A stretch of DNA of 41,338 bases from Ferrimicrobium sp. (GTDB lineage: Bacteria; Actinomycetota; Acidimicrobiia; Acidimicrobiales; Acidimicrobiaceae), in the NCBI RefSeq assembly GCF_027364955.1, contig NZ_DAHXOI010000021.1, positions 1 through 41,338 of the forward strand, read 5' to 3'. The notes beneath the pieces are model-generated. The model had not been told where the DNA came from. It was given only the letters and a program-made list of their open reading frames with translations, and did not search any database. The position numbers were made by a program, and so were the translations under genes. Below are positions 4,057 through 31,785 of the stretch, piece by piece; within the stretch, counting starts at the first letter, position 1; every line of letters starts with the position of its first letter.

Positions 4057-4070
4057 ATGGTAAAGACCAT
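4057..4070 (-). promoter_or_regulatory. GntR/HutC-type operator upstream of the permease
   Basis: On the minus strand the site reads ATGGTCTTTACCAT, with perfect outer arms ATGGT/ACCAT around a non-palindromic centre. The outer arms match those of the two other operators of this locus (7301-7313 and 12774-12787). AT-rich hexamers just upstream (TAACAT or CATAAA) could be the -10, but I see no convincing -35. The transcript would carry about 130 nt of leader before the permease ATG. Confidence 0.6.
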
Positions 4071-4120
4071 TTATGTTAAATCTTTCTCACTTCAGGCTTC
4101 ATTGTGTAAGTACTCCGACA

Positions 4121-6568: not shown

Positions 6569-6589
6569 CTCTCTTCCCTTCTGACTCAG

Positions 6590-7282: not shown

Positions 7283-7300
7283 CGAACCCCCCTTGGCATA

Positions 7301-7340
7301 ATGTCTAGACCATTCTAGGCGATCTCTTGGAGGTTGTCAA
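7301..7340 (-). promoter_or_regulatory. Promoter and GntR operator of the HAD / FAD-GcvT operon
   Basis: On the minus strand TTGACA (7335-7340) is followed after 17 bp by TAGAAT (7312-7317). The palindrome ATGGTCTAGACAT (7301-7313) overlaps the last bases of the -10 and so covers the expected start of transcription. Its GTCTAGAC core is exactly the GT-N-TA-N-AC pattern of HutC-subfamily GntR operators and is nearly identical to DasR sites. Occupancy would block RNA polymerase. The HAD GTG lies about 20 bp further on. Confidence 0.75.
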
Positions 7341-7371
7341 TCAACCTGCGCACCCGGGAGTCTCAACTGGT

Positions 7372-8307: not shown

Positions 8308-8339
8308 TTTCCCCCGAAATTTTGATAAGATGGATGCAC

Positions 8340-9107
8340 ATGGGAACGAACCTAACCGACTTTCCGACGCTCAAACAGGAGTCATCGGTTCCTCCCTACC
8401 AACAGATCGAACTCCTGCTCCTTGAGGCTATCTCGAGCGGACAGCTTAAGGGCGGCGACCGTCTGCCAGCCGAGCGAGAGCTCGCCCTGCACTTTGGTGT
8501 CTCTCGCATGACGCTCAGGCATGCTCTGGTTCGCCTTGAGAACAGAGGCCTGGTTGTCAAGGTAATCGGCAGGAGCGGAGGAACTTTTGTTCAGGGTCCA
8601 AAGATCGCCTGCGATCTGAGTAGAATCGCTGGCTTCACCGAGCAGCTGAAAAACAATGGCCTGCGCCCTGGAGCTCGGGTGCTCGCTGCGGTGGAGCAGC
8701 CAGCCGACGACGAACTTGCGAAAACCCTTGAGATCGCCCCTAATACGGGCTGCTACCGCATCGATCGACTCCGCCTTGCGGATGAAAAGCCGGTGGCGAT
8801 CGAGCAGTCCTGGTTTCCAGCCGAGCGATTTCCGGGCCTTATCGAACACGACCTTCGCGGCTCGCTCTACCTTATTCTTGAAGAGACCTACGGTGAGCGG
8901 CCCACCCGTGCTCTCGAGACTCTTGAGTCGGTCCGCCTGAGCAGAGCCCAAGCGGAGCTGCTTGGACTGAGAGGTGCACAACCCGGGCTCCAGATCGAAC
9001 GGATCGCCTATTCGCTCGGTGGACGGGTTGTCGAGTATGCGCGTGATATCTTTCGAGGAGATCGTACGAAGGTCACACTCTGGAGTGGCTTGGACTCCAA
9101 CCTCTAA
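8340..9107 (+). CDS. GntR-family (HutC/UTRA) transcriptional regulator
   Basis: About 255 residues. The N-terminal winged helix includes P-P-Y-Q-Q-I-E, D-R-L-P-A-E-R-E-L-A and F-G-V-S-R-M-T-L-R-H-A-L, the classic GntR DNA-binding segment. A linker with G-G-T-F-V-Q-G leads to a UTRA effector domain, with I-A-G-F-T-E-Q-L and a late Y-A-R-D-I-F-R-G-D-R. The frame is open from a TTG at 8322. ATGs at 8334 and 8340 are both possible; a GATAAG/TAAGAT -10-like element immediately upstream suggests a leaderless message starting at 8340. It sits inside the amine locus whose three promoters bear HutC-type palindromes, so it is the probable local repressor responding to a pathway metabolite. Confidence 0.9.
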   Translation: MGTNLTDFPTLKQESSVPPYQQIELLLLEAISSGQLKGGDRLPAERELALHFGVSRMTLRHALVRLENRGLVVKVIGRSGGTFVQGPKIACDLSRIAGFTEQLKNNGLRPGARVLAAVEQPADDELAKTLEIAPNTGCYRIDRLRLADEKPVAIEQSWFPAERFPGLIEHDLRGSLYLILEETYGERPTRALETLESVRLSRAQAELLGLRGAQPGLQIERIAYSLGGRVVEYARDIFRGDRTKVTLWSGLDSNL

Positions 9108-9129
9108 GCAAGTGACTGGCTCATCCAGA

Positions 9130-9159
9130 ACTGGCTCTCTAGAGACTGGCTCTCTAGAG
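9130..9159. repeat. Two perfect 15-bp tandem repeats
   Basis: The unit ACTGGCTCTCTAGAG occurs twice in a row (9130-9144, 9145-9159), with a partial third copy ACTGGCTC near 9115. Each unit contains a TCTAGA palindrome. The repeat lies at the convergent 3' ends of the GntR and SDR genes and reaches into the last SDR codons. It could be an end-of-transcript structure or a slippage product. Confidence 0.7.
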
Positions 9160-9918
9160 AGGAGTGACGTAGGCTGCATGGACTCCACCATCCACAATAA
9201 AGGCCGTAGCGGTGATAAAGGATGCCTCGTCTGAGGCGAGGAAACAGACGGCGTTGGCGATCTCCTCGGGTTCGGCGAAGCGACCTGTGGGAACGTGAAT
9301 GAGACGACGAGCGGCGCGCTCTGGGTCTTTGGCAAAGAGTTCCTGGAGCAACGGTGTATTCACCGGTCCAGGACACAGCGAATTGACTCTGACTCCACTG
9401 CGAGCAAACTGTACACCCAGTTCTCTCGACATCGTGAGAACTCCACCCTTTGAGGCGGTATAGGAGATCTGGGAGGTCGCCGCACCGACAAGGGCCACGA
9501 AGGAGGCAGTGTTGATAACCGATCCTCCTCCATGCGCAAGCAGGGTCTCGATGCCATACTTCGAGCACAGGTAGACACTGGTGAGATTGACGTCCTGGAC
9601 ACGACGCCACGCTTGCAGATCCGTCTCAAGGATCGAGTCGTCCTCAGGAGGCGAGATCCCGGCGTTGTTAAAACATACATCCAACGTGCCAAAATGGGCG
9701 ACCGTTGTCTCGTACATCGCCTTCACCTCCTCCTCAGAGGTAACGTCGGCGCGAATGAAGAGACCGCCGATCTCCGACGCGATCGCGGCGCCCTTTTCCT
9801 CATCCAAGTCAACCACCACGACTTTGGCACCCTCAACAGCAAACTTTCGAGCGCTCGCCGCTCCAATTCCACTCGCCGCTCCGGTGATCACCGCGACCTT
9901 GTTCTCCAAACGTAACAT
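9154..9918 (-). CDS. Short-chain dehydrogenase/reductase (classical SDR)
   Basis: A 254-residue classical SDR. It has the cofactor motif T-G-A-A-S-G-I-G (residues 12-19), an acidic residue after beta-2 (V-V-D-L-D) suggesting NAD(H) preference, N-N-A-G near residue 87, catalytic Y-T-A-S-K near residues 152-156, and the C-terminal F-I-V-D-G-G. The ATG follows a strong purine-rich site (GAGAGGGGATAGGGAGAGA). It begins 7 bp after the aldehyde dehydrogenase stop, so the ligase, aldehyde dehydrogenase and SDR form one operon. It could oxidise the alcohol group of an amino-alcohol adduct to the aldehyde used by its neighbour; this is inferred from context. Confidence 0.9.
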   Translation of the reverse strand: MLRLENKVAVITGAASGIGAASARKFAVEGAKVVVVDLDEEKGAAIASEIGGLFIRADVTSEEEVKAMYETTVAHFGTLDVCFNNAGISPPEDDSILETDLQAWRRVQDVNLTSVYLCSKYGIETLLAHGGGSVINTASFVALVGAATSQISYTASKGGVLTMSRELGVQFARSGVRVNSLCPGPVNTPLLQELFAKDPERAARRLIHVPTGRFAEPEEIANAVCFLASDEASFITATAFIVDGGVHAAYVTPL

Positions 9919-9925
9919 TCTCTCC

Positions 9926-11299
9926 CTATCCCCTCTCTTCCTCGATAGCTATGAAGACATTTTTTAGCTCAGTGAAGGCATCCAGTGCATCTGGACCGAG
10001 CTCCCTTCCGATCCCTGATCCCTTAAACCCACCAAAGGGCGTCGAGTACCGTACTGACGAATTGGAGTTCACGGAGAGGTTCCCGCTGTCGAGCTGGCGA
10101 ACGACCCGAAACGCCCTTGACAGATCTCTCGTCCAGACGGATCCGGAGAGTCCATAGATCGAGTCGTTCGCGATTTGGAGCGCCTCAGCCTCACTGTCGA
10201 AGGGGACGATGGAGACGACCGGTCCAAAGATCTCCTCGCGACAAGAGGGTGCGGTGGTGTCAGCTCCCGAGAGAACGGTTGGAGCAAAGTAATAACCCTT
10301 CGCAGGGACGTTCGGCATCTGGTAAATAACCTCAGCATCGGCGACATACCCCTGCACGCGGGCGAGTTGCTCCGCCGAGATCAGCGGCCCCATCTGTGTG
10401 CGATCATCGAGCGGATCACCAACGACGATCGACGCGGTCGCCTCAAGAAAGATGGGCAGAAAATCGTCATAGATCGCTCGATCAACGAGCAATCTCGATC
10501 GCGCACAGCAATCCTGTCCGGCGTTGTCAAAGACGGCGAAGGGAGCCGCCTGGGCCGCAGCCTCCACGTCGGCGTCACCGAAGATGATATTGGCGCTTTT
10601 GCCGCCCAGTTCAAGCGTCACTCGCTTCATCTGATCGGCACAACCCGCCATGATCTGCTTGCCCACTCGCGTCGACCCCGTGAAGCAGACCTTCTTCACG
10701 AGCTCGTTGGTCACCAGCCGCCAACCTGCGCGATCCCCACGTCCCGGCGCTACCTGAAAAACACCTTCGGGGAATCCAACGGCTAGGGCCAGGCGCTCCA
10801 GGATGAGCGCGCTCAATGGAGTAGCCTCGGCCGGTTTGAGAACTACGGTATTGCCGGCGGCGAGTGCCGGGGCGAATCCCCACGAAGCGATCAGCATCGG
10901 GAAATTCCATGGCACGATCACGCCAACCACACCCAACGGCTCGCGAAACGTGACATCGATTCCTCCAGCGACCGGAATCTGGCGGCCAAAGTGTCGCTCT
11001 GGAAACCCAGCAAAATACTCGATCACATCCGCGACGCCGAGCGCCTCACCTCTGGCCGAGGTGATCGGGTGGCCAGCTGATCGCATCTCAGCCTCAGCCA
11101 GCTCCTCGCTGTGATCGCGAACCTCGCTCGCAAAAGCGAGCAGAAGCTGTCTCCGATCATGTGGTGTGATCGCCCGCCAGCTTGAATAACTATGGTGGGC
11201 TCGGTGGATGAGTTCATCAACCTCTTCGATATCAAGGAACTGCACCGTCGCGCAGACGCTCAAGTCGGCTGGGTTGATGATGTCCTGCGTGGTGCTCAT
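9926..11299 (-). CDS. NAD(P)+-dependent aldehyde dehydrogenase
   Basis: A 457-residue ALDH-superfamily enzyme, slightly shorter than the usual 480-500 because the N-terminus is trimmed. P-W-N-F-P is the cofactor-side motif, F-T-G-S-T-R-V-G the Rossmann turn, L-E-L-G-G-K-S carries the general-base Glu, and G-Q-D-C-C-A holds the catalytic Cys. F-G-G-F-K-G-S-G-I-G-R-E near the end completes the family pattern. The start ATG overlaps the ligase stop (ATGA), so translation is coupled. In gamma-glutamyl pathways such as Puu the ALDH (PuuC) oxidises the gamma-glutamyl aminoaldehyde; an equivalent role fits here. Confidence 0.92.
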   Translation of the reverse strand: MSTTQDIINPADLSVCATVQFLDIEEVDELIHRAHHSYSSWRAITPHDRRQLLLAFASEVRDHSEELAEAEMRSAGHPITSARGEALGVADVIEYFAGFPERHFGRQIPVAGGIDVTFREPLGVVGVIVPWNFPMLIASWGFAPALAAGNTVVLKPAEATPLSALILERLALAVGFPEGVFQVAPGRGDRAGWRLVTNELVKKVCFTGSTRVGKQIMAGCADQMKRVTLELGGKSANIIFGDADVEAAAQAAPFAVFDNAGQDCCARSRLLVDRAIYDDFLPIFLEATASIVVGDPLDDRTQMGPLISAEQLARVQGYVADAEVIYQMPNVPAKGYYFAPTVLSGADTTAPSCREEIFGPVVSIVPFDSEAEALQIANDSIYGLSGSVWTRDLSRAFRVVRQLDSGNLSVNSNSSVRYSTPFGGFKGSGIGRELGPDALDAFTELKNVFIAIEEERG

Positions 11300-12648
11300 A
11301 ATCTCTCAAAACTCCTCTGTAACTCCCAATCGGTCACCGCACGCCCGAATGCGTCGAGTTCGACCTGGGCCATGTTGGTGTAGTGCTCAACAACCGCATC
11401 GGAGAACGCCGAACGAGCAATGGTTGATCGTGCAAAGAGCTCCATCGCCTCACCAAGACTGGTGGGCATTCGCTCCACATCCGCCACATAGGCGTTCCCT
11501 TGCATCGGCGGATCGAGTTCAAGCTCGTTGTCGATTCCATAGAGTACTCCCGCCACCATCGCGCCGATAGCCAGATACGAGTTGACGTCCCCACCTGGCA
11601 CTCGATTCTCGACCCGCAGCGATTGACCATGACCAACGACACGGAGGGCGCAGGTCCGATTGTCCATTCCCCACGCGATCGCCGTTGGGGCGAAGGATCC
11701 CTCGACATAGCGCTTGTAGCTATTGATATTTGGTGCATAGAGCAGTGCAAAATCGCGCATCGTCGCCGACAAACCAGCGATGGCGTGTTCAAACAGAGCC
11801 GATGCCCCATGGATTCGTTTGCCATCATCACCTGCGAAGAGTGAACGACCCTCATCATCGGTGGCCGACAGATGGATGTGACACGAGTTGCCCTCACGCT
11901 CATTGAACTTGGCCATGAACGACAGACTCATCCCCTCCTGGGCAGCGATCTCCTTCGCACCCAACTTGTAGAGAGCATGTTCATCGGCTTTGGCAAGCGC
12001 CTCCGAATAACGGAAAGCGATCTCATGCTGGCCATAGTTGCACTCGCCCTTGACGGACTCCACCACCATGCCAGCAGCCTTCATCTGCCTCCGTATTCGA
12101 CCAAGAATCGGTTCGACTCGTGATGTCCCGAGTATCGAGTAGTCCACGTTGTATTGGTTTGCCGGGGTAAGACCATGATAGGACTGCGAACGGGCATCCT
12201 CAAAACTCTCCTGAAACAGGAGAAACTCAAGCTCGGTACCCACCTGCAGCAACAGACCATGTTCCTGCGCACGAGCCAACTGGGCTTTTAGGATGTTACG
12301 AGGACCCTCAACAACGCTCGACCCATCGATCCAGGATAGATCTGCATGACAGAACACCGTCTTGTCGATCCAATGAGTGGGAACGAGTGTGGAGAGATCA
12401 GGAGTGAGGACAAAGTCGCCGTACCCCTTTTCCCAGGAGGTGATCTGGTAACCAGGTACGGTATTCATATCCACATCGACACCCAGCAAATAGCTACACC
12501 CTTCGGTACCAGCCCGTATGGTCTCATCGAGAAAGAAGTCTGCGTCCAAACGTTTCCCCTGGAGGCGACCCTGCATGTCGGTGATAGCGACGACTACCGT
12601 ATCGATCTCGCCCAAATCGACGAGGCGTTTGAGATCCTCTAGGTGCAT
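11296..12648 (-). CDS. Glutamine-synthetase-like gamma-glutamyl-amine ligase
   Basis: A 450-residue glutamine synthetase fold protein. A short beta-grasp N-terminal part (to about residue 105) is followed by the catalytic barrel. Metal and substrate motifs include G-T-E-L-E-F, E-C-N-Y-G-Q-H-E-I, S-C-H-I-H-L-S, N-S-Y-K-R-Y-V-E-G-S-F-A-P and E-N-R-V-P-G-G-D. The sequence resembles the GlnA3/GlnA4/PuuA group that glutamylates polyamines or ethanolamine rather than ammonia, and the Tyr adenylylation loop of GlnA is not evident. The ATG has AAGGGAGAGGAC upstream. It leads an operon with ALDH and SDR and is preceded by a promoter with the shared operator. Ethanolamine, another amino alcohol or a primary amine is the likely acceptor. 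Confidence 0.87.
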   Translation of the reverse strand: MHLEDLKRLVDLGEIDTVVVAITDMQGRLQGKRLDADFFLDETIRAGTEGCSYLLGVDVDMNTVPGYQITSWEKGYGDFVLTPDLSTLVPTHWIDKTVFCHADLSWIDGSSVVEGPRNILKAQLARAQEHGLLLQVGTELEFLLFQESFEDARSQSYHGLTPANQYNVDYSILGTSRVEPILGRIRRQMKAAGMVVESVKGECNYGQHEIAFRYSEALAKADEHALYKLGAKEIAAQEGMSLSFMAKFNEREGNSCHIHLSATDDEGRSLFAGDDGKRIHGASALFEHAIAGLSATMRDFALLYAPNINSYKRYVEGSFAPTAIAWGMDNRTCALRVVGHGQSLRVENRVPGGDVNSYLAIGAMVAGVLYGIDNELELDPPMQGNAYVADVERMPTSLGEAMELFARSTIARSAFSDAVVEHYTNMAQVELDAFGRAVTDWELQRSFERL

Positions 12649-13833: not shown

Positions 13834-15570
13834 TCACCTGGGGCTAATGGTGTAGTTGCGGTTGGGCTGAGTGTCGTGAGGACGGAGCGATAGATCCTTC
13901 ATCTCCTTGTCGCTGACCTTGACACCTGTTGGGTAGTTGATCTGGACAAGATGGGCGTCGACCCGGAGCCCGGTCTTGGTTCGGGTGGTGCTGATGTAGT
14001 TAAGGACGGTCTCGTAGTCGGTTAGCGGCCTACCCGCCCAGTTCTTGCTTATCTCACTGAATGCCCTATGTTCAATGGGGTTCCACCGCGAGGCGCCGCT
14101 CGGGTAGTGGCTAACAGTGACGGTGAGGCTATAGGGGTCGCAGACGCGGTGTTGAAGGCCATATTTCCAGGCTCTACATCGTGCACCGTTGCTGTGCCCC
14201 GGAGTCGGCCAATACGAGCAGCTCAGTGGCCTCCGGATAGCGACGGCGACCGTGGCAGACCCACCACCTGGCCAGGTTGTCGACAGCGAAGTCAGGAGTG
14301 TCGTGGGTTGCGCCAACCGAGACGCAGGCTTCATTCGCGTCGATGTCGTAGACACCGTAGGGCAGTGCGACGCCTGTGGCGTCAGAGAGAAAGTCGTGGT
14401 CGAGCACTGCTACGGGTTCCCTTACCCAGGTAGTCCCGGCGTTCTTGAACTCACCAACCAGTTCTCGGTGCTTGGCATCTATGCTCACAACTGGCAGTCC
14501 AGCTTGGCTAAAGTTCTCGCGCATGGCTGCGATGTAGGCGAACTGGACGTCGCGGCCAGGGTCCTTTTGGCGGTTGAGCTTCTTTGCGTTCACTCTGAGC
14601 CTATAGCCGAGTTCCTTCAAGAGCTTGGCGACGGTGTTGGGGCAGACCTCGATGCCACCAGAGGCGAGCTCGTCTGCGACCTTCTCGGTGGTACGCCTGG
14701 TCCACAAGATGCCACTCACCGGGTCGCCGGCGGTGTCATGTTTCATCAAAGTGTGGATCGCCTCGATTATCTCGGGGATGCTTTTTTTGCCGAAGGCCGC
14801 CCTCCACCGGCCCGTCGCACCCGCCCCGGAGAGATGTCACCAGAGAGCAGCTCTTGGCGACCCCGAGCTACGGCACCTGGGTCGATGCCCAGGAGTTCTG
14901 CGACCTGGGTGTCTCCACCATGTCCGACTTTCATAGCCTCAAGGCCAGCGTAAAGGCGCCGCTGTTGTTCGTCTAAGAGGCTAGAAAACCCTACGATCGC
15001 AGCTTTTAGCTCGTCTGGCACGACACGCAAGCCTGCACCGAGCCCAAGGGCTCCCGCCTTGGCATCGTAGATGGCCCGAGCCTGGAGCTGGGCCCTACGT
15101 GTGGGGACATCTGTGGATAGGTAGATAAAGCGCCCGGCGACCTTCTCCCGTGTGAGGCGTCCCTCTCGCACCAACAATACCAGGGCGTCCTTGGTGCCCA
15201 CCTGCAGTACAGCCTCGGCCTCTGTGACGTCATAGCCGGCCTCTGCGGCCCCCACGAGCTCTTCGAGTGTAGCGACGAGCGTGCCGAAACGGCTAAAGAA
15301 GACCTGACGGAATGACCACAGTCCAAGTGCGTCGAAGTGAGCGAGCTCGTCCAGGGTGTAGTAGCGCCCGCGGTGCGAATAACTCGTATGGTATCCGAGT
15401 CCAGCCAGTTTTCGGAACACCGTGACATCGGCAGCTGACCCGAGAGCCTCCTTCAACTCGTCCATGGTGGCGATCTTGCGTTGTTGCAAAAGGCGTCTCA
15501 GGTCGTCGGCGTGGTACCGCTCTGGCCTCATTCTGATAGAGTTCCGCTTCGCATAGCTGAACCCTTTCAT
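13834..15570 (-). pseudogene. ISAzo13-family DDE transposase with extra N-terminal DNA-binding domain, frame-disrupted
   Basis: Three frames together encode about 578 residues. The first (15570-14767) has an N-terminal helix-turn-helix-like domain of about 180 residues, then the ISAzo13 start: L-L-D-E-Q-Q-R-R-L-Y-A-G-L-E-A and R-R-A-G-G-G-R. At a run of seven A (14782-14788) the homology moves to the -1 frame (14766-14174), with W-T-R-R-T-T-E-K, V-V-S-I-D-A-K and V-L-A-D-S-G. At a GGGG run (14197-14200) it returns to the first frame, with S-H-Y-P-S-G-A-S-R-W-N-P-I-E-H-R. The DDE residues are the Asp of S-I-D-A-K, the Asp of L-A-D-S-G and the Glu of P-I-E-H-R. The A7 site could be a programmed -1 slip; the G run looks like a one-base insertion, so the gene is probably inactive unless that is a sequencing error. 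Confidence 0.8.
14782..14788 (-). promoter_or_regulatory. Candidate -1 ribosomal frameshift site (A7)
   Basis: In the first transposase frame the codons are GCA AAA AAA GCA, giving the classical heptamer A-AAA-AAA. A -1 slip continues as AGC ATC CCC GAG ATA, encoding S-I-P-E-I, exactly where the family sequence goes on. The zero frame stops five codons later (TAA at 14767-14769). Confidence 0.5.
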
Positions 15571-21828: not shown

Positions 21829-22761
21829 TTAGCCCTCTTCGTCAGCACCGATTCCGATAACCAGACCATCAGCCTTCATCGCCGGAGAGGAGGTCAAAAA
21901 GACCGCCACACCCTCGACTGGGCTCTGGATCTCCTCGACGACCTCACCGAAGAGATCGCTGACCGTACCAATCACCTGGCCCGCATGGAGATCCTCCCCG
22001 ACAGCGACTGTCGGCGCCCACCATCCCTCGTGCTTGGATCGCAGCCAGACAAACCGGTGAAAATGACGAACCTCGAGGTCTGGTTCGATCGCCTCGGTGG
22101 GCTCGTACATGCCAAGGTAGGCGACGGTGCGCGCCAAACCCCGCAGGTGATGCTCGATCGCCTCGCTCTCGACCAGACCTCGCCCACCGGATTCGGCGAT
22201 GATCGAGGGGATTCCGAGACCGCCAGCGATCTGTGAAGTCGCTCCAGTCACCGCTGGGTCGAGCATCGGCTGATGAATAGAGAAGGGAAACCCATAGGCC
22301 TCTGCGAGGAGTCGGGATGCATCTTGTACCGGCGAGTCATCGTAGATGGTGAAGCGAAAGAGATCCTCGACCATATCCCCCGCGTGGAGATCGATGAAGA
22401 AATCCGATCCCTTGATCAGCTCCTCCGTCACGAAGTAGGCCAACGCATCCGAATAGGTGCCCTCAGGATCACCAGGGAAGCAACGATTCAGGTTCTTCTG
22501 ATCCCGCGGTGAGACAAAGGGACTCCGGTCATAGAAGGCATCGAGGTTCAGGGTTGGTACCGCTCGAATCCGACCGCCAAGACGGGATGGCTCAAGCGTA
22601 CGCAGGAAGGTCCGAACCGCCTGTTGGGAGGTGTACTCACAGCCATGGACACCAGCCACCAGCGTCAACGTCGGTCCATCGTTGGCACCATGAATCTCAA
22701 AATAGGGGATCTGCAGATGAGAGATCGGGGCGAGATCGCTATGGAGAAAGCGCTGTTGCAC
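21829..22761 (-). CDS. AstE/aspartoacylase-family zinc deacylase
   Basis: A 310-residue zinc carboxypeptidase-like enzyme. V-H-G-C-E-Y-T supplies the His and Glu metal ligands (near residues 39-42). F-I-D-L-H-A-G-D gives the third ligand, and I-A-E-S-G-G contains the likely general-base Glu. Family members remove acyl groups from N-acyl amino acids (succinylglutamate, N-acetylaspartate, N-acetyl-diaminobutyrate). The GTG start follows AGGGAAG and lies 3 bp beyond the M55 stop, so it is the last gene of a four-gene operon. The C-terminal beta domain (about residue 220 onward) is complete. Confidence 0.86.
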   Translation of the reverse strand: MQQRFLHSDLAPISHLQIPYFEIHGANDGPTLTLVAGVHGCEYTSQQAVRTFLRTLEPSRLGGRIRAVPTLNLDAFYDRSPFVSPRDQKNLNRCFPGDPEGTYSDALAYFVTEELIKGSDFFIDLHAGDMVEDLFRFTIYDDSPVQDASRLLAEAYGFPFSIHQPMLDPAVTGATSQIAGGLGIPSIIAESGGRGLVESEAIEHHLRGLARTVAYLGMYEPTEAIEPDLEVRHFHRFVWLRSKHEGWWAPTVAVGEDLHAGQVIGTVSDLFGEVVEEIQSPVEGVAVFLTSSPAMKADGLVIGIGADEEG

Positions 22762-22764
22762 GCG

Positions 22765-23592
22765 CTATCTTCCCTGTGCCTGACGGGTGAGATAACACAC
22801 ACCGACAAAGGAACGGTAGAGCGCGAGTGGATCGGAACCGGTGATCGTGCAGGATCGCAGATCAGCCCGCTCAACGCCGGTGATCCAACTAGCTAACTCC
22901 GCCTGGTCAGAGGTCTGGAAGGACATCGTGATCGTCGCGGGGAGGTCAATCGCGGGAAGGTCAATCGACTTGGCGGCCTCCACCGCTCGCTCTGCGGCCT
23001 CACTGAGGCGCTTGTGCGCAAGATGGGGATGCAGATTCGATGCAGCATACCTGGTGATCGACTCCTTCACCTGCACCATGATCGCCTGTTTCATGAGTGG
23101 CTCGGCCTGGAGGGCAGTCGCTCGATCACCGCTGATCAGGCCGATGGGAACACGTTGGCCGAGTGCGACGAGCGCGTTGACGCCACTCTCACCGACCTCG
23201 ATATCGTTGACCCGAAGCTCCGTAAAGACTGACGGGCTATAGCTATGGGACATGACCGAAGGAACACCGGAGATGCTGCCGTGGTAGCCGATGAAGAAAA
23301 TGACGTCGAACTCACTGGTGAGACCCTCCATCATGTACCCCGGCTTGTGGGCTCCCGAGATGTAGGTCGCATCGCCATGGAGCAACCTGGGGTCGAGATT
23401 TTGCATCCGGTAATGGGCGTCGTTGACGACAAACTCCGTTGCTCCCGCCATGAGCGCTCCGTCGATCGCCGCATTGATCTCGGCAAGGGTGAGCTCTTGA
23501 CCCATCGCAACGGCGGGGCCATTGCCAGTGCACTGATCCCAATCGACGATCCCCGAGATCCCCTCCATGTCAAAGCTGATATAGACCTTCAT
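22765..23592 (-). CDS. M55-family D-aminopeptidase (DppA-like)
   Basis: A 275-residue protein starting M-K-V-Y-I-S-F-D-M-E-G-I-S-G. The D-x-E pair here, H in N-D-A-H-Y, H in I-G-Y-H-G, and S-H-S-Y and V-G-E-S-G-V-N-A downstream supply the zinc ligands and pocket of M55 peptidases, which form self-compartmentalising decamers in DppA. I chose the ATG at 23592, which has AAGGAG nine bases upstream, over the 20-residue longer frame. It lies between the asparaginase-like and deacylase genes. The family cleaves D-Ala-rich or other small peptides; the substrate in this operon is open. Confidence 0.88.
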   Translation of the reverse strand: MKVYISFDMEGISGIVDWDQCTGNGPAVAMGQELTLAEINAAIDGALMAGATEFVVNDAHYRMQNLDPRLLHGDATYISGAHKPGYMMEGLTSEFDVIFFIGYHGSISGVPSVMSHSYSPSVFTELRVNDIEVGESGVNALVALGQRVPIGLISGDRATALQAEPLMKQAIMVQVKESITRYAASNLHPHLAHKRLSEAAERAVEAAKSIDLPAIDLPATITMSFQTSDQAELASWITGVERADLRSCTITGSDPLALYRSFVGVCYLTRQAQGR

Positions 23593-23714
23593 CGTTGGTG
23601 CTCCTTTGTTACTCTCTTGCTTGGCTTCTCTCTCATTCGAACGGGCCCCCATTGGTCACAAGATGGCGACGTGCTGGGTTCGTAATCGGCGGTTAACGCC
23701 AGCGTACGGCGCAC

Positions 23715-24626
23715 CTATCCCTCCATGGGAACATAGGTGCGCGGCACAAGTTTGGTACTATCCCAATCAGCCTCTCGAATCGCATACATCGCCTCCGCCT
23801 TGGTCGAGACCGCAGCGTGACGTCCATCCGCAGCGAGGATAACGATGTGCATGATGAAATTGTTCGACGAGTCGACGAGGCTGTCGAGGTCACGGATAGC
23901 CGTGATCCCTGCCTCCTCAGGGCTCATGCCCTCCCCAAGATAGCGAACGACCATGCGGGCAGTCGACGCTCGAAGTGAGAGTTCCCCAAATCCGGTACAG
24001 GCGGCTGCCCCGTAGCGCGAATCACAGTAGTTACCTGCTCCGATCACTGGGGAATCCCCAGCCCGACCAGGCCACTTCCACGCCCAACCACTGGTCGAGA
24101 CGGCCGAGGCCATCGAACCATCATCGGCGAGGTACAGAAAGTTCACCGTGCCAGCTGCCTTCTCCGGATCGGTGGTCAGTGCCATCACCCGCGTCAGCGG
24201 ATCCGCTGCTTGGCCAGGATCCAGTTGATCGACCGCATGCTGCCAGGTCGCGCGTGCCGAGTCGGTGAGCAGTTGGGCACCCTCAGCACCGACCTCGTGG
24301 GCAAACTTCGCCGCACCCTCCCCGACCAGCAGGACATGGGGGGAACGCTCCATCACCGCTCGGGCGACGGAGATGGGATGTCGATATCCCATCAACCCTG
24401 CGACACAGCCAGCTCGCCGAGTGTTGCCGTCCATGATCGAAGCATCGAGCTCGACGACCCCTTCTAGGTTAGGGAGTCCGCCGGTGCCAACGCTATGGTC
24501 ATCGAGGTTGTCCTCCACGAACCATGCCGCTCGCTCCACCGCAGTGACCGGGTCGAGTCCACCCTCAAGGTCAGCCCAAACGCCATCAATCCCGATAGCG
24601 CCGTTGGCGCTCGCAATCATCAACAC
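23715..24626 (-). CDS. Ntn-hydrolase asparaginase/glycosylasparaginase-like protein
   Basis: A 303-residue asparaginase_2-family enzyme. V-G-T-G-G-L-P-N and E-L-D-A-S-I-M-D-G near residues 46-68 are family signatures. Autocleavage is expected just before the Thr of A-A-G-T-V-N-F-L, freeing the catalytic Thr. C-D-S-R-Y-G and C-T-G-F-G-E line the substrate site. Known activities are release of aspartate from N4-GlcNAc-asparagine or beta-aspartyl peptides. The start is GTG at 24626, or the nearby ATG at 24620. It follows the solute-binding protein after a hairpin and precedes the M55 gene, consistent with breakdown of an imported amide or peptide. Confidence 0.86.
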   Translation of the reverse strand: MLMIASANGAIGIDGVWADLEGGLDPVTAVERAAWFVEDNLDDHSVGTGGLPNLEGVVELDASIMDGNTRRAGCVAGLMGYRHPISVARAVMERSPHVLLVGEGAAKFAHEVGAEGAQLLTDSARATWQHAVDQLDPGQAADPLTRVMALTTDPEKAAGTVNFLYLADDGSMASAVSTSGWAWKWPGRAGDSPVIGAGNYCDSRYGAAACTGFGELSLRASTARMVVRYLGEGMSPEEAGITAIRDLDSLVDSSNNFIMHIVILAADGRHAAVSTKAEAMYAIREADWDSTKLVPRTYVPMEG

Positions 24627-24720: not shown

Positions 24721-26565
24721 CTACTTCGTAAAGTACCAATCCTCTGGAGTGATGTACTCGTAGGGGCTCTGGGGTGTCGCACCGTGGAGGTTTGATGCGA
24801 TCTCCGAGAGTTGGACGTCAGTATCTGGCTGGTAGATCACCGGCAACTGCTTGGCCATGTAGTTCTGATAGGCATCAAGGGCCGCCTGGGCCTGGGTCCC
24901 GGAGGAGGTCAGTGTGGCCGCAATCAGGGTGTTCGCTTCGTTAGAGCTATAACTCCCATCGTTGGAACTCGCCCCGGCAGCAAACAGCGTCTCGCCCGAT
25001 GGGTAATAGTCAGGTGAATAGCTCCAACCACCTCCCCAGTTGGCCATCTCCCACGAACATGCCGCTTGGCTCGGGGTACAGGCCGCCGAGTAACTGATCA
25101 CACCGGCAAAGGGAGCCTCGCTGAGGTTGATCTTGACTCCGGCTTGTAGCGCTGCAGACTGGAAGGCGGTCATCTCCTCGGTGGCTGAATTCAGGCCCGA
25201 GATGTACTTGAGGTTAAAGTTCATCGTCTGTCCACTCTTGATGCCGGTGCCGCACTCGTTCGCTCCACTCCCTGAGGTGACGCACGTCATGACGCCGTTC
25301 ACCATCTTCCAGCCGTGCGAAGTCAACAGCTTCTTCGCATTGGTCGGAGAGTAAGGATACTGGACCGTCGTTGAGACAGCGTCATCAAAGGGATTCGGTG
25401 GTACCGTTGGCACTGGCGAGTAGGACGGTGTCCCATAACCCTTCAAGAAGGTCGTCACCCACTGTGATTGATCGACAAGTTCCTGGAGCGCCTGGCGCAC
25501 GTAGAGCTGTTTGAAGATCGGTCCAACCGTGGGGTTGTTGTAGTTGATCGGCATGTAGTTGAAGCCAAAGATCTGCCATGGGGCAAAGCTATAGCCCTCG
25601 CTAGCAACTCGCGACTTCTGCGGAAGGTCAGACACCGGCAGGTAGCCGTAGCTGATGCTTTTACCCGAGCTCAACACGTTAAACTCCGACGAGTCAGAGG
25701 TGAAGGGCAACTCAACAAACTCCGACAGGGTCGGCTTCGGTGATCCCGAATACTTCGTGTTAGGGACAAAGACTGCCTTGCCCTCAGTCGTAAAACTCGT
25801 CAACCTCCACGGACCATCGACCACTTGCCAAAGCGGATTGGTCGCATACGTCGACAAAGAAGTCGACGCTGTGTTTAAGAACTTGTAGACCGCCTGTGCC
25901 CCAGCGGTGGTCAAGTCTGGTGCATTGGGGTCGGTGGCACTTGGTGTTGGTGCCGAGGCCGAGGTCTTGTCCCAGGCCAGCGGTAACGGGACGAGCTGGG
26001 AGAGTTCATTGTAGGTAAACCAGCTCGGGCTGTAGGCCTTGTTGAGCTGCATGACAAAGGTGAGCGGTCCGGTCGCCTTATACGAGACGACGTTATCTGG
26101 AAAATAGCCAGGGACGTAGTCGAACCATTGGGTCTTGTTGGCCTCCAACAAGTTCATCCAAAACACGAGGTCGCGCGCGTCGACAGTCTCTCCGTTGGAC
26201 CACTTCCAGCCCTTCAGTTGAATAGTGACCGTCTTATCGCCGTTCGAGTAGACCGGTGCATCGGCAAGCGACTGCGAGTAGTTGATCTCAGCTTTGCCGT
26301 TCTTACCGAAGAAGTACAAGTTCCTAAACATCAGATTATCGAACTCATAGAGGTTCACGTTCGACTCATTCGCCCCATTCATGAGCGGAAAGATATACGT
26401 CGGTGGTGACAGCGGCTGTTCAGCGAAGTAGGCGACCCCACCTTGAACCTTGGTGGTCGATGACGAGGTCGATGACGACGAAGACGATGCGGTCGAGCCA
26501 CAGGCAGCGAGCAGCATGACGCTCGCTGCAGAGATTGCCGCAAACTTGATCCAACTAGAACGCAT
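24721..26565 (-). CDS. ABC transporter family-5 solute-binding lipoprotein
   Basis: 614 residues from the ATG at 26565, which has AGGGGG nine bases upstream. A lipoprotein signal is clear: K7, a hydrophobic stretch and the lipobox L-L-A-A-C with C22. A Ser/Thr-rich linker follows, then the SBP_bac_5 fold, with L-K-G-W-K-W-S-N-G-E-T-V-D-A-R-D-L-V-F near residues 115-135. This class binds oligopeptides, nickel or opines. It heads the operon with three amide/peptide hydrolases. No ABC permease or ATPase gene is found in this window, so it must use a transporter encoded elsewhere or serve as a sensor. Confidence 0.9.
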   Translation of the reverse strand: MRSSWIKFAAISAASVMLLAACGSTASSSSSSTSSSTTKVQGGVAYFAEQPLSPPTYIFPLMNGANESNVNLYEFDNLMFRNLYFFGKNGKAEINYSQSLADAPVYSNGDKTVTIQLKGWKWSNGETVDARDLVFWMNLLEANKTQWFDYVPGYFPDNVVSYKATGPLTFVMQLNKAYSPSWFTYNELSQLVPLPLAWDKTSASAPTPSATDPNAPDLTTAGAQAVYKFLNTASTSLSTYATNPLWQVVDGPWRLTSFTTEGKAVFVPNTKYSGSPKPTLSEFVELPFTSDSSEFNVLSSGKSISYGYLPVSDLPQKSRVASEGYSFAPWQIFGFNYMPINYNNPTVGPIFKQLYVRQALQELVDQSQWVTTFLKGYGTPSYSPVPTVPPNPFDDAVSTTVQYPYSPTNAKKLLTSHGWKMVNGVMTCVTSGSGANECGTGIKSGQTMNFNLKYISGLNSATEEMTAFQSAALQAGVKINLSEAPFAGVISYSAACTPSQAACSWEMANWGGGWSYSPDYYPSGETLFAAGASSNDGSYSSNEANTLIAATLTSSGTQAQAALDAYQNYMAKQLPVIYQPDTDVQLSEIASNLHGATPQSPYEYITPEDWYFTK

Positions 26566-26609
26566 TACCCGGTTCCCCCTTTTGCTAGGCACCCCGCCCA
26601 GTGTTTCCA

Positions 26610-26638
26610 ATACTAGCGGCATCTGGGCGATGTTGTAA
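26610..26638 (-). promoter_or_regulatory. Promoter of the solute-binding protein operon
   Basis: Minus strand: TTACAA (26633-26638), a 17-bp spacer and TAGTAT (26610-26615). Transcription would start near 26603, leaving about 38 nt before the ATG at 26565. Confidence 0.6.
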
Positions 26639-26656: not shown

Positions 26657-26685
26657 TTGACAAATTTACTTTCCTTTCATAAACT
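26657..26685 (+). promoter_or_regulatory. Promoter of the reductase-amidase fusion gene
   Basis: TTGACA (26657-26662), 17 bp and TAAACT (26680-26685) form a strong promoter. Transcription would start near 26692, so the leader to the ATG at 26879 is close to 190 nt. The upstream in-frame TTG at 26657 lies inside the -35 box and cannot be a translation start. Confidence 0.7.
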
Positions 26686-26878
26686 GGAAACAGGAATCTC
26701 ACACCTTTGGGAGTCAAGACCGTTCAGTAAAGACCGGTCGAAGAATCGACATGACAAGTTAACGCTTGCCGCCAGGTACCTGTGTCTACCCGCCAAGGAA
26801 GCACTCGTGCCTTTGTGCAGCTGTTTGCGGGTAAGCGATGGCTACCCAAAAGTCCAGAATCCAGAGAGGAGCAGGTCC

Positions 26879-28996
26879 ATGCAGATGACGATTGTGGGAG
26901 CTGGAGCCATCGGAGGAATGATCGGGGCACATATGGCCGCCGCCGGTCATGACATCACCCTGTGCGATGTTGATCATGCGCACATCGATGCCATCCGATC
27001 GCACGGACTCACCATCGAGGGTCCCATCGCGAGCTTCACCGTCCATCCCAAGGCGATCTATGCCGAAGAGCTCGATGGTCTCCATGACTGCATCGCCCTG
27101 GCCGTCAAGAGCCACCACACCGCAACCGCTAGCGCACTCGTCGCCGAGCACCTCAGCCCAGATGGAGTCCTCCTGACCGTGCAGAATGGTCTGACCCTCG
27201 ATACGGTTGCCCAATGTGTCGACCGCTCACAGATCGTCACCGCCTTCATCAACATTGGTGCAGATGTCATGGAACCAGGGCTCATCCGACAGGGCAACAT
27301 CGCCGCCTTCTACGTCGGAGAGCCCTTTACCAACGAGGTGACCGATCGTGTACGTCGTCTCGTCGAGGCACTCCCGTATGCAAAAAGTACCGACAACATC
27401 ATGGGTTACCTCTGGGGGAAAGAGGCCTATGGGGCGATGCTCTGGGCGGGTGCCGTCTCCGATCTCTCCATCGCCCAGTCGCTCTCCGATCCTCGTTACC
27501 ACGACCTCATGATCGCCATCGCGCGTGAGGTGCTTGATCAGGCACCGGTCAAGCCAGAGGGTTTTGATGGCTTTGAACCCATGGATCTCGAGGGTTCCCT
27601 CGTACGGCTCGCCGCATTCAACGCCAAGAGCGCCAAGTCACACAGCGGCATCTATCGCGATCTCATGGTGCGTCGACGACCAACCGAGGTAACCGAGTTG
27701 CTGAACGACCTTACGGGACCACTCACCACCCACGTCGGCCGAATCATCCAGGCCATCGAGCGTGGCGAGCGAACGTGCGAGGTGGCCAACCTCGACCTCG
27801 TCAACGCCTACTATCGAGCTCATCGTTTCGCCGAACCTCTCCACGCGATTGTCCACTACCTTGATGCCCCACGACGGGCGGAGTCAGGACCTCTCCACGG
27901 CTACCAGATCGGCGTCAAGGATCTCATCGCTGTCGCTGGCACTCCTCTTGGCAATGGAAATCCTATCGATATGAGCGGCCCCCCCTCCAAGGTGGAGGCA
28001 CCGGTGATCACCAAGCTTCGCGAGGCCGGTGCCGATATCTTCGCTACCACCTCCCTCCTCGAATATGCCTTAGGCTCTCCCCATCCGGATCTGCCAGACG
28101 CTCGCAATCCGGTTGCCCCCGCGCTCACCGCTGGAGGTTCAAGCGGCGGCTCCGCGGTCATCGTCGCGGTCGGAGCTGCCCAAATCGCGCTCGGTACCGA
28201 TAGCGGTGGCTCGGTACGGATTCCCGCCCATTACTGCGGCGTGGTCGGCTTCAAGCCAACCTATCAGCGTCTCTCGCTACGTGGCGTTACTCCGCTGTCA
28301 CCGACCCTTGACCACCTTGGCATCCTCACCCGAGACGTCGCCACCGCCAGCCGGTGTTATCAGATCCTCACCGACGCCAACGAGGCAACGTCAGCATACC
28401 CACGACCTCGTCTTGGCTTTGTCGCTGGACAGCTCGATGACGATCTTCTCGATGAAACCGTGGCGAACGCATTACATCGCGTACTCGCTCTGCTGGGTGA
28501 GGCCGGGTACGAGCTCGACGAAGTGAACCCTGAGCCCTTCGAAGAACTCGATCGCTGTTTCGAGACCATCATCTCCTACGAGGCGTATCAGATTCATGCC
28601 CCCCAGCTCCTGGCCGATCACGCACACTTTGGGAAAGAGACCGCGAGGGTACTCGCCCTCGGAGGTGACATCACACCAGCACACTACGAGCATGCGCTTC
28701 AAGAGCGAACAGCGGGAATCGAAGCACTCATTGCCGCCTCGAACGGTATCGACATGCTGATCGGCCCGACCGCCCCAATGGTGGCCCCAGGCCAGAACCC
28801 GTCGATCGACACTCCAGAGGGATACCTTGAGGGAGTGATGACCCGTGCGTATAACCTGACTGGGCAACCAGCCATCTCGATCCCGATACCAGGTTCACGC
28901 CTTCCTGTCGGCCTACAACTCGGTACTGCCTTCGGGGAGGATCTTGCACTGCTTCACTGGGCAGCCGAAATCGAAGAACTCCTCCAACGAGCGTAA
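26879..28996 (+). CDS. Fusion of ketopantoate-reductase-like protein with amidase
   Basis: One uninterrupted 705-residue frame from the ATG at 26879 (AGGAG eight bases upstream). Residues 1 to about 310 are an ApbA/PanE-type NADP-dependent reductase, with G-A-G-A-I-G-G at 7-13, V-Q-N-G-L in the centre and a Lys in W-G-K-E-A-Y at about residue 183. From about residue 340 an amidase-signature domain begins: P-L-H-G-Y-Q-I-G-V-K-D-L holds the catalytic Lys, T-A-G-G-S-S-G-G-S-A the cis-Ser, and G-T-D-S-G-G-S-V-R-I-P-A the nucleophilic Ser. The amidase lacks the usual N-terminal helical segment, so the reductase replaces it. It is divergent from the peptide/amide operon. Reaction and substrate are unknown; cleavage of an amide coupled to reduction of a 2-keto acid is imaginable. 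Confidence 0.85.
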   Translation: MQMTIVGAGAIGGMIGAHMAAAGHDITLCDVDHAHIDAIRSHGLTIEGPIASFTVHPKAIYAEELDGLHDCIALAVKSHHTATASALVAEHLSPDGVLLTVQNGLTLDTVAQCVDRSQIVTAFINIGADVMEPGLIRQGNIAAFYVGEPFTNEVTDRVRRLVEALPYAKSTDNIMGYLWGKEAYGAMLWAGAVSDLSIAQSLSDPRYHDLMIAIAREVLDQAPVKPEGFDGFEPMDLEGSLVRLAAFNAKSAKSHSGIYRDLMVRRRPTEVTELLNDLTGPLTTHVGRIIQAIERGERTCEVANLDLVNAYYRAHRFAEPLHAIVHYLDAPRRAESGPLHGYQIGVKDLIAVAGTPLGNGNPIDMSGPPSKVEAPVITKLREAGADIFATTSLLEYALGSPHPDLPDARNPVAPALTAGGSSGGSAVIVAVGAAQIALGTDSGGSVRIPAHYCGVVGFKPTYQRLSLRGVTPLSPTLDHLGILTRDVATASRCYQILTDANEATSAYPRPRLGFVAGQLDDDLLDETVANALHRVLALLGEAGYELDEVNPEPFEELDRCFETIISYEAYQIHAPQLLADHAHFGKETARVLALGGDITPAHYEHALQERTAGIEALIAASNGIDMLIGPTAPMVAPGQNPSIDTPEGYLEGVMTRAYNLTGQPAISIPIPGSRLPVGLQLGTAFGEDLALLHWAAEIEELLQRA

Positions 28997-29069: not shown

Positions 29070-29113
29070 TCTGCGACGCTGTATCTCATGGTCTGCGACG
29101 CTGGGTCTCATGG
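29070..29113. repeat. Two tandem 22-bp repeats at the 3' end of the DUF885 gene
   Basis: 29070-29091 and 29092-29113 differ at two of 22 positions; a third copy starts TCTACGA and fades. The second unit includes the DUF885 stop codon region at 29108-29113. The convergent gene ends 80 bp away. Confidence 0.65.
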
Positions 29114-30832
29114 TCTACGAAGGTCTGAGGTGCTGTGCACCCATGCTTCTACCACTGAGGCTGCCACACCGAGTGGAATCGCTCCTTGGCCGAGTATCAC
29201 ACCGTGGAAGTCCCGAATATCAAAGTCACTACGCAACCGTCGCTCGGCCTCCTTTCGAAGGCGTCCGATCTCTCGACGTCCCACCAAGTACGCGGTGGCC
29301 TGCCCTGGCCAGCCGATATAGCGATCGATCTCATTGGTGATGTTGGCCATATTGGTGGCGCTATTTTCCCACATGAACTCGATAGCTCGTTGCCTGGACC
29401 ATCCATAATAGTGCATACCGGTGTCGACGACACACCGACTGGCACGCAACGCCTCAAAAGACAACATGCCAAGACGGGCGAGATCACCACTGTAGAGCCC
29501 CATCTCGTCGGCGAGGCGCTCGGCGTAGAGCCCCCATCCTTCGACAAAGGCGCTCACCTCTGCGTCAAGGTAACGCCGAAACGCCGGCAACTCAGTGAGC
29601 GTCTGCGCGGTAGCGATCTGGAGATGATGCCCCGGCACACTCTCATGGAAGGCCAAGGCTTCGTACTCATAACGGAAACGTTCAGTAGGAACCGTCGTCA
29701 AGACACAGTGAGCGCCGGGGCGAGTACCGTCGTCTGAGGGACCTCGATAATACGCAAGGGCGGCGTTCTCTGCCTCGGCCGTCGAGATCTCTTCCACGAC
29801 GCAGCGAGCAATCGGCCGGTCTGGGAACCATTGCGACTGCGCTTGTTCGGCCGTCGCCAAGGCCCTCGTCACCACCTCGATGATCTGGGAACTATTCTCA
29901 AACCGTAGGCTCTGGTCTCCTCGCAACCGATCGAAAAGACTTCGTCGATCGCTGATGCCAAAGACACGGTTGCCCACCTCGGCCCACTCCTCATCAAGTC
30001 GGGCAAGCGTCTCAAGCCCCAAACGATGAATCTCTTCGGGGGTCATTGCCGTCGTGGTATGGCGAAGGAGCGCCCGGGTATAGAGTTCCTGCCCGTCACC
30101 GAGCACACAAAGACCTACCTCCTCATCGCCGCGGGCATGCGCCGTCGGATCGCCAGCAAGATAGTCACGAACCGCAGCAATCGCCGGCCGGATTTCTCGA
30201 TGGACGAGGTCGCGAATCCGTTCGCGTTCACCCTCAAAGCCAGCGGGTAGCGCTACATTGATGAACAAGTCATGGGCATCATCGAGCCCAAGATGGCCGT
30301 CGAGCTGGGCTATCGCTTGGTGGACACCGGCTGCAGTGGAGAAGTGTCGTTGCCTATCCGCCTCCTGGTAGCGGTCACGGATCGTCAAAAAAAGTGCCGG
30401 CAGTTGGCGCAGTCGCTCGAGATAGCTTTCGACCCCCGATGCGTCAGCGAGCACAGCAGTTGGGACGGTCTGAAAGATCCTCGCCTGTGGGGATACGTAC
30501 CCGCCAGCCGAGATATTCCGGGCCCAGAGCTCGTCTTCGAGTTCCGTGACGGCGCCATAAGCAAGAGCGTCCATCACCTCGAGGTTGATTCGTTCTGTGA
30601 AGGCCAGCCCTTCGCCGCTGGTCTCGGCGTCACCGAGGAGTGTCTCGATGCGGCTCTGGATGGCACGATATCCTTGAGCCGTCGCGTGCTCACCCTCGGG
30701 TGTCAGATCGGGTAGCTCACCATCGAAGGCATGGAGGCCGAGTTCCGTCGCCGTTAGCGGGTCACGGCTGTGCTTGTGCGCAAAGAAGTCATCGTTCAAG
30801 CTGACGAGCTCTTGGTGGATGTTGTCGGTCAT
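29108..30832 (-). CDS. DUF885-family zinc peptidase-like protein
   Basis: 574 residues spanning the full DUF885 fold, which is all-helical. The signature A-L-A-F-H-E-S-V-P-G-H-H-L-Q lies at about residues 391-404 and gives an H-E-x-x-P-G-H-H zinc motif. Later family blocks are T-G-M-H-Y-Y-G-W-S and G-W-P-G-Q-A-T-A-Y. The ATG has GAGGAGG directly upstream. Proteins of this family are thought to be metallopeptidases, and it stands convergent to the amidase fusion gene, so a role in the same peptide breakdown is possible. No signal peptide is seen, hence it is probably cytoplasmic. Confidence 0.87.
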   Translation of the reverse strand: MTDNIHQELVSLNDDFFAHKHSRDPLTATELGLHAFDGELPDLTPEGEHATAQGYRAIQSRIETLLGDAETSGEGLAFTERINLEVMDALAYGAVTELEDELWARNISAGGYVSPQARIFQTVPTAVLADASGVESYLERLRQLPALFLTIRDRYQEADRQRHFSTAAGVHQAIAQLDGHLGLDDAHDLFINVALPAGFEGERERIRDLVHREIRPAIAAVRDYLAGDPTAHARGDEEVGLCVLGDGQELYTRALLRHTTTAMTPEEIHRLGLETLARLDEEWAEVGNRVFGISDRRSLFDRLRGDQSLRFENSSQIIEVVTRALATAEQAQSQWFPDRPIARCVVEEISTAEAENAALAYYRGPSDDGTRPGAHCVLTTVPTERFRYEYEALAFHESVPGHHLQIATAQTLTELPAFRRYLDAEVSAFVEGWGLYAERLADEMGLYSGDLARLGMLSFEALRASRCVVDTGMHYYGWSRQRAIEFMWENSATNMANITNEIDRYIGWPGQATAYLVGRREIGRLRKEAERRLRSDFDIRDFHGVILGQGAIPLGVAASVVEAWVHSTSDLRRP

Positions 30833-31086: not shown

Positions 31087-31785
31087 TCAAAACAGTGCAC
31101 TCCCACCATCGATCGAAAGGGTTTGACCCGTGATCCAGCTGGCGTGTTCAGACACGAAGAAGGAGACGCCATGGGCGATATCCGTTGCTTGACCCAATCG
31201 TCGGAGCGCAATACCCTCGACCAATCGCCGCTGACCCTCCTCCCCGTAGGACTCCCACTGCGCGATCGTGGTGGGGTTGGAGAGGACAAAACCCGGTGCA
31301 ATAGCGTTGACCGTGATGGAGTAGGGACCGAGTTCATGGGCCATCTGCCGGGTGAAGCTGATCTGGGCGGCCTTGGAACTAGCGTAGGCTTGAATTCCCG
31401 TCAGCGAGACACTCCTCCCTGCCCCCGAGGAGATCGTGACGATCCTTCCCCAGCCGCGATGCTTCATTCCCCCAACGACCGCACGTACACAGTGGAAGGT
31501 GCCAGTCAAGTTGACGTCGATGATCGCCTGCCAATCGGCGTCAGTCACCGCCTCAAGCGGCTGGTGGACCTGACCAAGTACACCGCCGGCACTGTTGACC
31601 AGGATGTCGATGGGAGGAGCGGCGGCGACAAATCGCTCGACAGACGCTGCGTCCGTGACATCCATCTCATCACGATCCGTTCTCAGCACCTCAAGTCCAT
31701 CTGCCTCCAGTTGGTCCGCAATCGCACGCCCGATTCCCTGGGCGGTGCCGGTCACTAGAGCGACCGGCTTTGCTGGTCGAGACAT
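31087..31785 (-). CDS. Short-chain dehydrogenase/reductase (classical SDR)
   Basis: A 232-residue classical SDR. T-G-T-A-Q-G-I-G (12-19) is the cofactor loop. R-T-D-R after beta-2 leaves the cofactor choice open. N-S-A-G replaces the common N-N-A-G, and catalytic S and Y-A-S-S-K follow. It ends with L-S-I-D-G-G-S-A. A strong GAAGGAGGAGT precedes the ATG. It resembles FabG-like reductases but stands alone, so no pathway can be assigned. Confidence 0.87.
   Translation of the reverse strand: MSRPAKPVALVTGTAQGIGRAIADQLEADGLEVLRTDRDEMDVTDAASVERFVAAAPPIDILVNSAGGVLGQVHQPLEAVTDADWQAIIDVNLTGTFHCVRAVVGGMKHRGWGRIVTISSGAGRSVSLTGIQAYASSKAAQISFTRQMAHELGPYSITVNAIAPGFVLSNPTTIAQWESYGEEGQRRLVEGIALRRLGQATDIAHGVSFFVSEHASWITGQTLSIDGGSALF

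Follow-up and report, generated by a model that had tools for sequence, protein, structure and literature searches.

A single open reading frame in a 41,338-nucleotide stretch of DNA from Ferrimicrobium sp. (hereafter the window) encodes a ketopantoate reductase (KPR)-like oxidoreductase joined to an amidase. The fused protein has intact catalytic residues and is encoded among peptide-uptake and peptidase-type genes. We propose that its two domains catalyze successive reactions on a single dipeptide-like amide taken up by the cell, in either order, and we put the probability of this reading at roughly two in three. Both enzyme families are known, and it is their combination in one protein that is new. 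A KPR–amidase fusion was not reported among the matches listed in a full-text literature search, mostly of journals outside subscription, and the terms amidase, ketopantoate and dehydropantoate do not occur in the available main text of a survey of gene fusions (PMC4921024).

Architecture and conservation of the fused protein

The frame 26657..28996 (+) is open throughout and comprises 779 amino acids when counted from a TTG. An ATG at 26879 gives 705 amino acids with zero internal stops, ending at 28996 (+), and the column of this ATG is Met in 11 of 12 aligned fused proteins, the exception being L016. The likely ribosome-binding site, GAGAGGAG (26864..26871, +), lies 7 nt before the ATG. Further upstream is a sigma-70-like promoter, TTGACA-17-TAAACT (26657..26685, +), identified by consensus match only, with two such matches found versus 0.8 expected by shuffling. 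The 705-residue coding sequence (26879..28996, +) is delimited by the open reading frame, Pfam and the fused homologues. It contains the Pfam domains ApbA (PF02558, residues 4-148, E 2.9e-24, 85.8 bits against a cut-off of 22.2) and Amidase (PF01425, residues 323-692, E 2.4e-65, 221.8 bits against a cut-off of 27), and the frame is thus open across both domains, as the original prediction stated.

With a 16-row alignment as input, AlphaFold2 gave a model of the full-length protein with a mean pLDDT of 90.2 and a pTM of 0.88; for residues 1-321 the values were 92.5 and 0.88, respectively. Residues 1-299 of the model superpose on the archaeal KPR 5ayv (Z 31.9; rmsd 2.1 over 282 residues). Residues 299-704 superpose on malonamidase E2 (Z 50.4; rmsd 2.6 over 392 residues), and the model from residue 296 matches amidase 2dc0 (Z 49.3). 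The KPR fold match ends and the amidase match begins at about residue 299, so one fold directly succeeds the other, and in the model the two abut near this residue with no linker. On the basis of Pfam, these structural matches and conserved residues, we assign residues 1-299 (26879..27775, +) to the KPR-like domain, with K77, N103, K181 and E270, and residues 300-705 (27776..28993, +) to the amidase domain, with Lys347, cis-Ser422 and Ser445.

The junction consists of a helix at residues 302-321 (27782..27841, +), delimited by DSSP, the alignments and the structural range. It corresponds to the first helix of the amidase in the structural match to malonamidase E2; in the model, the amidase fold begins at residue 298-301 and pairs with malonamidase E2 from residue 13-16 of the latter. 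Compared by eye, the helix is similar in its first half to the C-terminal tail of unfused KPR orthologues (...VANLDLVNAY in the window, ...AANLDELATF in the standalone KPR of genome G586) and in its second half to an amidase N-terminus. The standalone amidase of G586 also starts within this helix in the alignment. The original prediction described the amidase as having lost its usual N-terminal helices and read this as a sign of fusion. The loss was overstated, since the first helix is present and the domain is compact like malonamidase E2, which is longer by about 13 residues; helix loss thus lends no support to a fusion.

The same fusion is found in 15 genomes including the source genome, several of them metagenome bins that may be contaminated, with 53-88% identity. 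Thirteen of the 15 genes are uninterrupted (the window gene and L009, L010, L012, L013, L014, L015, L016, L017, G280, G148, G953 and G991), one is cut by contig ends and one by a run of N. The L009 homologue is 78% identical to the window protein, and the fused genes of G280 and G148 (loci L025 and L026) come from the same genus as the window. In G579 the fusion lies in two pieces, L011 and L019, at contig ends. The apparent split in G981 was considered as a genuine two-gene version and rejected, because the interruption is a run of 10 N. Uninterrupted fused frames in 13 different genomes rule out an assembly slip, as the original prediction had anticipated in proposing a real fusion that should recur in several genomes, and we found no point in support of an assembly or frameshift artefact, the chance of which we regard as negligible. 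Separate genes with an intervening stop codon, the arrangement named in advance as contrary evidence, were seen in none of the 15 fusion-carrying genomes; in a further genome, G586, the cluster contains the reductase and the amidase as two genes some 10 kb from each other.

An alignment of 12 fused proteins runs across the junction almost without gaps. Measured against five close homologues, residues 1-285 have a dN/dS of 0.046-0.084 and residues 336-705 one of 0.107-0.147; these values are rough, with many dS near saturation. Roughly judged from these low ratios, both halves appear to be under selection.

The KPR-like/amidase fusion is not common and is conserved in part of the Actinomycetota. 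In a comparison restricted to best matches, 297 of 298 genomes of the order match the protein, nearly all listed rows falling in the amidase half, and the full-length matches among those listed are three, all from the window's genus. The reductase half has a match at E 1e-20 in 12 of 395 genomes of the class, two of which (from the window's genus) show 84-100% identity and the rest 30-37%. At E 1e-30, 3/396 genomes of the phylum match, namely the window's own and two at 40-41%. Among relatives of genome G582, six of 119 match at 1e-60 and all six have the fused layout, one across a run of N. The order, class, phylum and G582-relative samples overlap. The source genome contains seven other matches to the fused protein, all confined to the amidase half. 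A plasmid search with the whole protein matched 1380 records, none of which covered 80% of the query at a single location, and a comparison with PHROGs yielded nothing useful.

Active sites of the two halves

Both catalytic sets are present, as originally predicted. In the amidase half, K347, S422 and S445 are identical in all 12 amidase-bearing rows of the 16-row alignment A1. The PF01425 score over cut-off, together with this intact Ser-cisSer-Lys triad, places the domain in the amidase signature family; it is of the compact type, and amide hydrolysis is its predicted activity. It shares the compact fold and the triad with malonamidase E2 (1o9q/1ocl) and amidase 2dc0. Both of these enzymes are stand-alone, unlike the window protein, and are 27-28% and 36% identical, respectively, to the window half.

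In the reductase half, K77, N103, K181 and E270 are identical in 16/16 rows of alignment A2. Two further columns, set by alignment to 5hws, hold Asn in that structure; here the first is Gly in 15 of 16 rows and the second is an aromatic residue (W/Y/F) in all 16. We take the two Asn of 5hws to be Asn180 and Asn184 of E. coli KPR, and K181, E270 and N103, matched by motif, are presumably its Lys176, Glu256 and Asn98. For E. coli KPR with a 2-oxo acid, one paper describes Asn184 and the Ser244 backbone as bonding the carboxylate and Asn98 and Lys176 as bonding the 2-oxo group (PMC10127515). Another names Lys176 as the general acid, gives both Asn98 and Ser244 as contacts of the carboxylate, has Asn180 bonding the alpha-hydroxyl, and lists Glu256 and Lys72 as participants (PMC3478992).

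The designation PanE/ApbA-like in the original prediction is apt with respect to the ApbA domain, the KPR fold and the catalytic Lys, Glu and Asn, but the domain is probably not PanE. On the predicted model, membership of the KPR fold superfamily extends over the whole domain. Its C-terminal part is still KPR-like by fold, despite the absence of the corresponding Pfam domain: PF08546 was not detected in the fused protein (threshold E 0.01) or in G586's standalone KPR (threshold E 0.001), and is present in the unfused relative L021. The archaeal/bacterial KPRs (5ayv/5hws) and E. coli PanE (2ofp, Z 24.5) share the fold over residues 1-299 and have the catalytic Lys, Glu and Asn that the window protein keeps. 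They differ from it in that the window protein has Gly and an aromatic residue at the two Asn positions, lacks a PF08546 match, is fused to an amidase and comes from a genome with no detected PanB. The D-mandelate dehydrogenases of the KPR family (5x20, 3wfi and 8wl1; Z 29.7 to 5x20) also have this fold, are stand-alone and are 18-22% identical to the window half, which indicates that the KPR fold serves substrates besides ketopantoate.

An ordinary pantoate-making PanE fused by accident to an amidase would be in keeping with the placement of the reductase half near ketopantoate reductase by Pfam and NCBIfam, with the unfused relative L066, which passes the NCBIfam TIGR00745 (apbA_panE) cut-off at 182 bits, and with PanB over cut-off in 8/15 genomes checked. 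We consider it highly improbable because the fused protein itself, at 101.7, stays below the TIGR00745 cut-off of 141.35, the Asn180/Asn184 positions are replaced, and PanB (PF02548) had no match in the source genome (97.55% complete) but did in 11 of 14 controls. PanB was also below cut-off or absent in five clade relatives (G148, G280, G577, G578 and G579), and missing from G583 and G585. These points make a role of the reductase half in pantothenate synthesis unlikely.

As a separate observation, no PanB over cut-off was found in the six genomes comprising the source genome, G148, G280, G577, G578 and G579, suggesting that the usual route to pantothenate is not available to this clade. The source genome keeps a ketol-acid reductoisomerase.

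The fold comparison also bears on an opine-dehydrogenase style of reaction, in which the KPR-like domain would condense an amino acid or amine released by the amidase with a 2-oxo acid, a variant of the channelling suggested in the original prediction. The fold is shared with N-(1-D-carboxylethyl)-L-norvaline dehydrogenase (Z 21.9) and pseudopaline dehydrogenase (Z 19.9), but true KPRs are a far better match (Z 31.9) and the gene setting looks catabolic, making this reaction very unlikely.

Genomic context and origin of the fusion

The fused gene lies next to a divergent gene for a peptide-type substrate-binding protein (SBP_bac_5; 24721..26622, -), and a substrate-binding protein is found in 8 of the 15 fused loci. 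Beyond it, on the same strand, are genes for an isoaspartyl-peptidase-like Asparaginase_2 protein (23715..24626, -; 12/15 fused loci), a DppA-like member of the M55 D-aminopeptidase family (22765..23652, -; 11/15) and an AstE/AspA-family protein (21829..22761, -; 7/15). Downstream are a DUF885 protein (29108..30832, -; 10/15) and an SDR oxidoreductase (31087..31785, -; 11/15) related to the SDR of the clusters with unfused KPRs; all six were assigned by Pfam. Less frequent in the 15 fused loci are an ATPase (6), creatininase (4), M20 (4) and permease (2). Genome G953 has the fused gene and none of the other reference genes within 19 kb. These counts used E 1e-15 over half the query, with at least 45% identity for the SDR (a threshold that excludes the 32-33% SDRs of L021 and L023), in loci of 3.8 to 41 kb; the reference proteins were drawn from the counted loci, and self-matches are included.

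The one creatininase-family gene of the source genome (C9) was considered as a cluster creatininase and rejected, its 20-kb region having no reference match at E 1e-8. Elsewhere in the window is a second catabolic-looking block (1076-12648, -) that encodes a DAO oxidoreductase, an amino-acid permease, a dimethylglycine/sarcosine-dehydrogenase-like protein with GCV_T domains, a HAD protein, a choline/ethanolamine-kinase-like protein, an SDR, an aldehyde dehydrogenase and a glutamine-synthetase-like protein. An ISAZ013-type transposase remnant, matched by its profile in the C-terminal part only, is found at 13834-14355 (-).

Unfused members of the same KPR subfamily occur in clusters in Deinococcus, Sagittula, Sulfitobacter, Alsobacter and others, likewise beside SDR and peptide-importer genes, where they are annotated as 2-dehydropantoate 2-reductase or ketopantoate reductase family protein. 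Eight such KPR rows are 36-43% identical to the window's reductase half; the standalone KPRs of G585 and G586 are 57-58% identical. We counted neighbors in 16 unfused loci, four from the homologue search and 12 hand-picked from 81 plasmid records. Most frequent were the substrate-binding protein (14), SDR (13), permease (12), creatininase (12), ATPase (11) and GntR (10), followed by M20 (8), M32 (7), isoaspartyl peptidase (4), polysaccharide deacetylase (4), RraA (3), AstE (2) and amidase (2). The RraA-family gene may encode a 2-oxo-acid aldolase. Creatininase, GntR and M20 are found in the unfused clusters but not in that of the window. Unfused loci L047, L085 and L086 are outside this count, the last two having little besides the KPR, and two of the first five loci examined, from Neorhizobium and Roseomonas, contain little of the cluster. 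A cluster of importer, GntR, creatininase, KPR and SDR genes was not reported among the matches listed in the literature search, again mostly of journals outside subscription.

On plasmids of Deinococcus and Roseobacteraceae we observed a recurrent cluster (L066, L067, L069 and L100-L106) with genes for a dipeptide-type ABC importer, a GntR regulator (MarR in L106), creatininase, a KPR-like protein, an SDR and peptidase-type proteins.

The two unfused loci with an amidase, those of Deinococcus peraridilitoris and D. deserti, have KPR and amidase in one cluster. Their amidases are not close to the fused one: the two amidase trees, which contain 13 fused rows (L011 excluded) and 14 fused rows, disagree on their placement, in another branch or weakly nearby (74/72). 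Amidases are so frequent (297/298 order genomes match) that a nearby amidase can be due to chance.

In the tree of the reductase domain, all 12 fused rows cluster together (93/93), and this cluster adjoins the two standalone KPRs from G586 and G585; the latter genome also has a fused gene. The amidase tree puts the unfused amidase of G586 within the fused group, beside the fused amidase of G585 (93/95); constraining the fused amidases to a group of their own comes at a cost of 10.7 log units (p-AU 0.061). Between the KPR and amidase genes of G586, which share a contig, are permease, ATPase, M55, isoaspartyl-peptidase, SDR and DUF885 genes. The trees are suggestive of one fusion, possibly followed by loss of the reductase half in the G586 line, where a second, standalone KPR existed. 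In G585, the standalone KPR is about 13 kb from the fused gene, and its presence there implies that tethering is not essential. In this genome, loci L076-L077 make up a single cluster, where two creatininase-family genes accompany the fused gene and the standalone KPR.

Fusion could also serve co-expression or complex assembly only, with the two domains acting on different pathway intermediates and no hand-off between them. The separate KPR and amidase genes of G586 and the two Deinococcus, the 14 of 16 unfused loci in which no amidase was seen and the extra KPR of G585 are consistent with such an arrangement. Against it are the retention of the fused form in 15 genomes and the low dN/dS of both halves, and we regard it as rather improbable.

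Possible order of the two proposed steps and wider meaning

The reading that the two domains act consecutively on one substrate draws on the fusion itself, the low dN/dS of both halves, the neighboring genes, and the clusters of G586 and Deinococcus in which KPR and amidase occur together. We counted against it the amidase found by the search in only two of 16 unfused loci, and the absence of cluster genes around the fused gene of G953. Fusion would fix the two activities at a 1:1 ratio and keep the intermediate near, for which a physical tunnel would not be needed. In the order to which we lean, the KPR-like domain would first use NAD(P)(H) to convert a 2-oxo group to a 2-hydroxy group or the reverse, on an acyl still linked as an amide. 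The amidase, through Ser445, cis-Ser422 and Lys347, would then hydrolyze that amide, giving an acid plus either an amine or an amino acid, and the isoaspartyl-peptidase-like, M55 and AstE-like neighbors may act on the surrounding peptide.

A commitment to this particular order, with the oxidoreductase acting on an amide-bound acyl before the amidase, is tentative and falls short of even odds. It agrees with one suggestion of the original prediction, that a 2-keto amide may be reduced ahead of its hydrolysis. We lean slightly to it because the Asn that contacts a free carboxylate (the Asn184 position) is replaced here. The argument for an amide-bound substrate is a weak one, since Ser244 and Asn98 are also carboxylate contacts in the papers cited above, and Asn98 is kept.

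In the opposite order, the amidase would first release the acid from its 2-hydroxyacyl or 2-oxoacyl amide, and the freed acid would then be oxidized or reduced by the KPR-like domain; we see this as possible, if on the doubtful side. Among solved structures, the nearest are KPRs and D-mandelate dehydrogenases, enzymes that act on free 2-oxo acids, and RraA-family genes occur in 3/16 unfused loci. PMC3478992 places a 2-ketoisovalerate reductase in the KPR family and gives Asn98, kept here, as a carboxylate contact, both of which are in line with action on a freed acid. Replacement of the E. coli PanE Asn180 and Asn184 positions in the subfamily speaks against it. As candidate substrates, we considered 2-oxosuccinamate and pantothenate and found nothing in support of either.

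More broadly, the clusters could encode a catabolic pathway, widespread and so far undescribed, that breaks down a peptide-like compound of the N-(2-oxo- or 2-hydroxyacyl) type and is composed of a dipeptide-type importer, a GntR regulator, a creatininase-family hydrolase, KPR-like and SDR oxidoreductases, and peptidases. The actinobacterial fusion would then be a 2-oxoamide reductase-amidase that changes the 2-position before the amide is cut. We consider this extended proposal unlikely as it stands.

The fusion provides a 'Rosetta stone' link, suggesting that a KPR-like enzyme annotated as part of pantothenate biosynthesis belongs to the same pathway as an amidase. If true, this would correct the misannotation of the subfamily in clusters of Deinococcus, Alphaproteobacteria and Actinomycetota. 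It points to a pathway for a peptide-like nutrient, the substrate of which is open to direct search by growth and metabolite tests.
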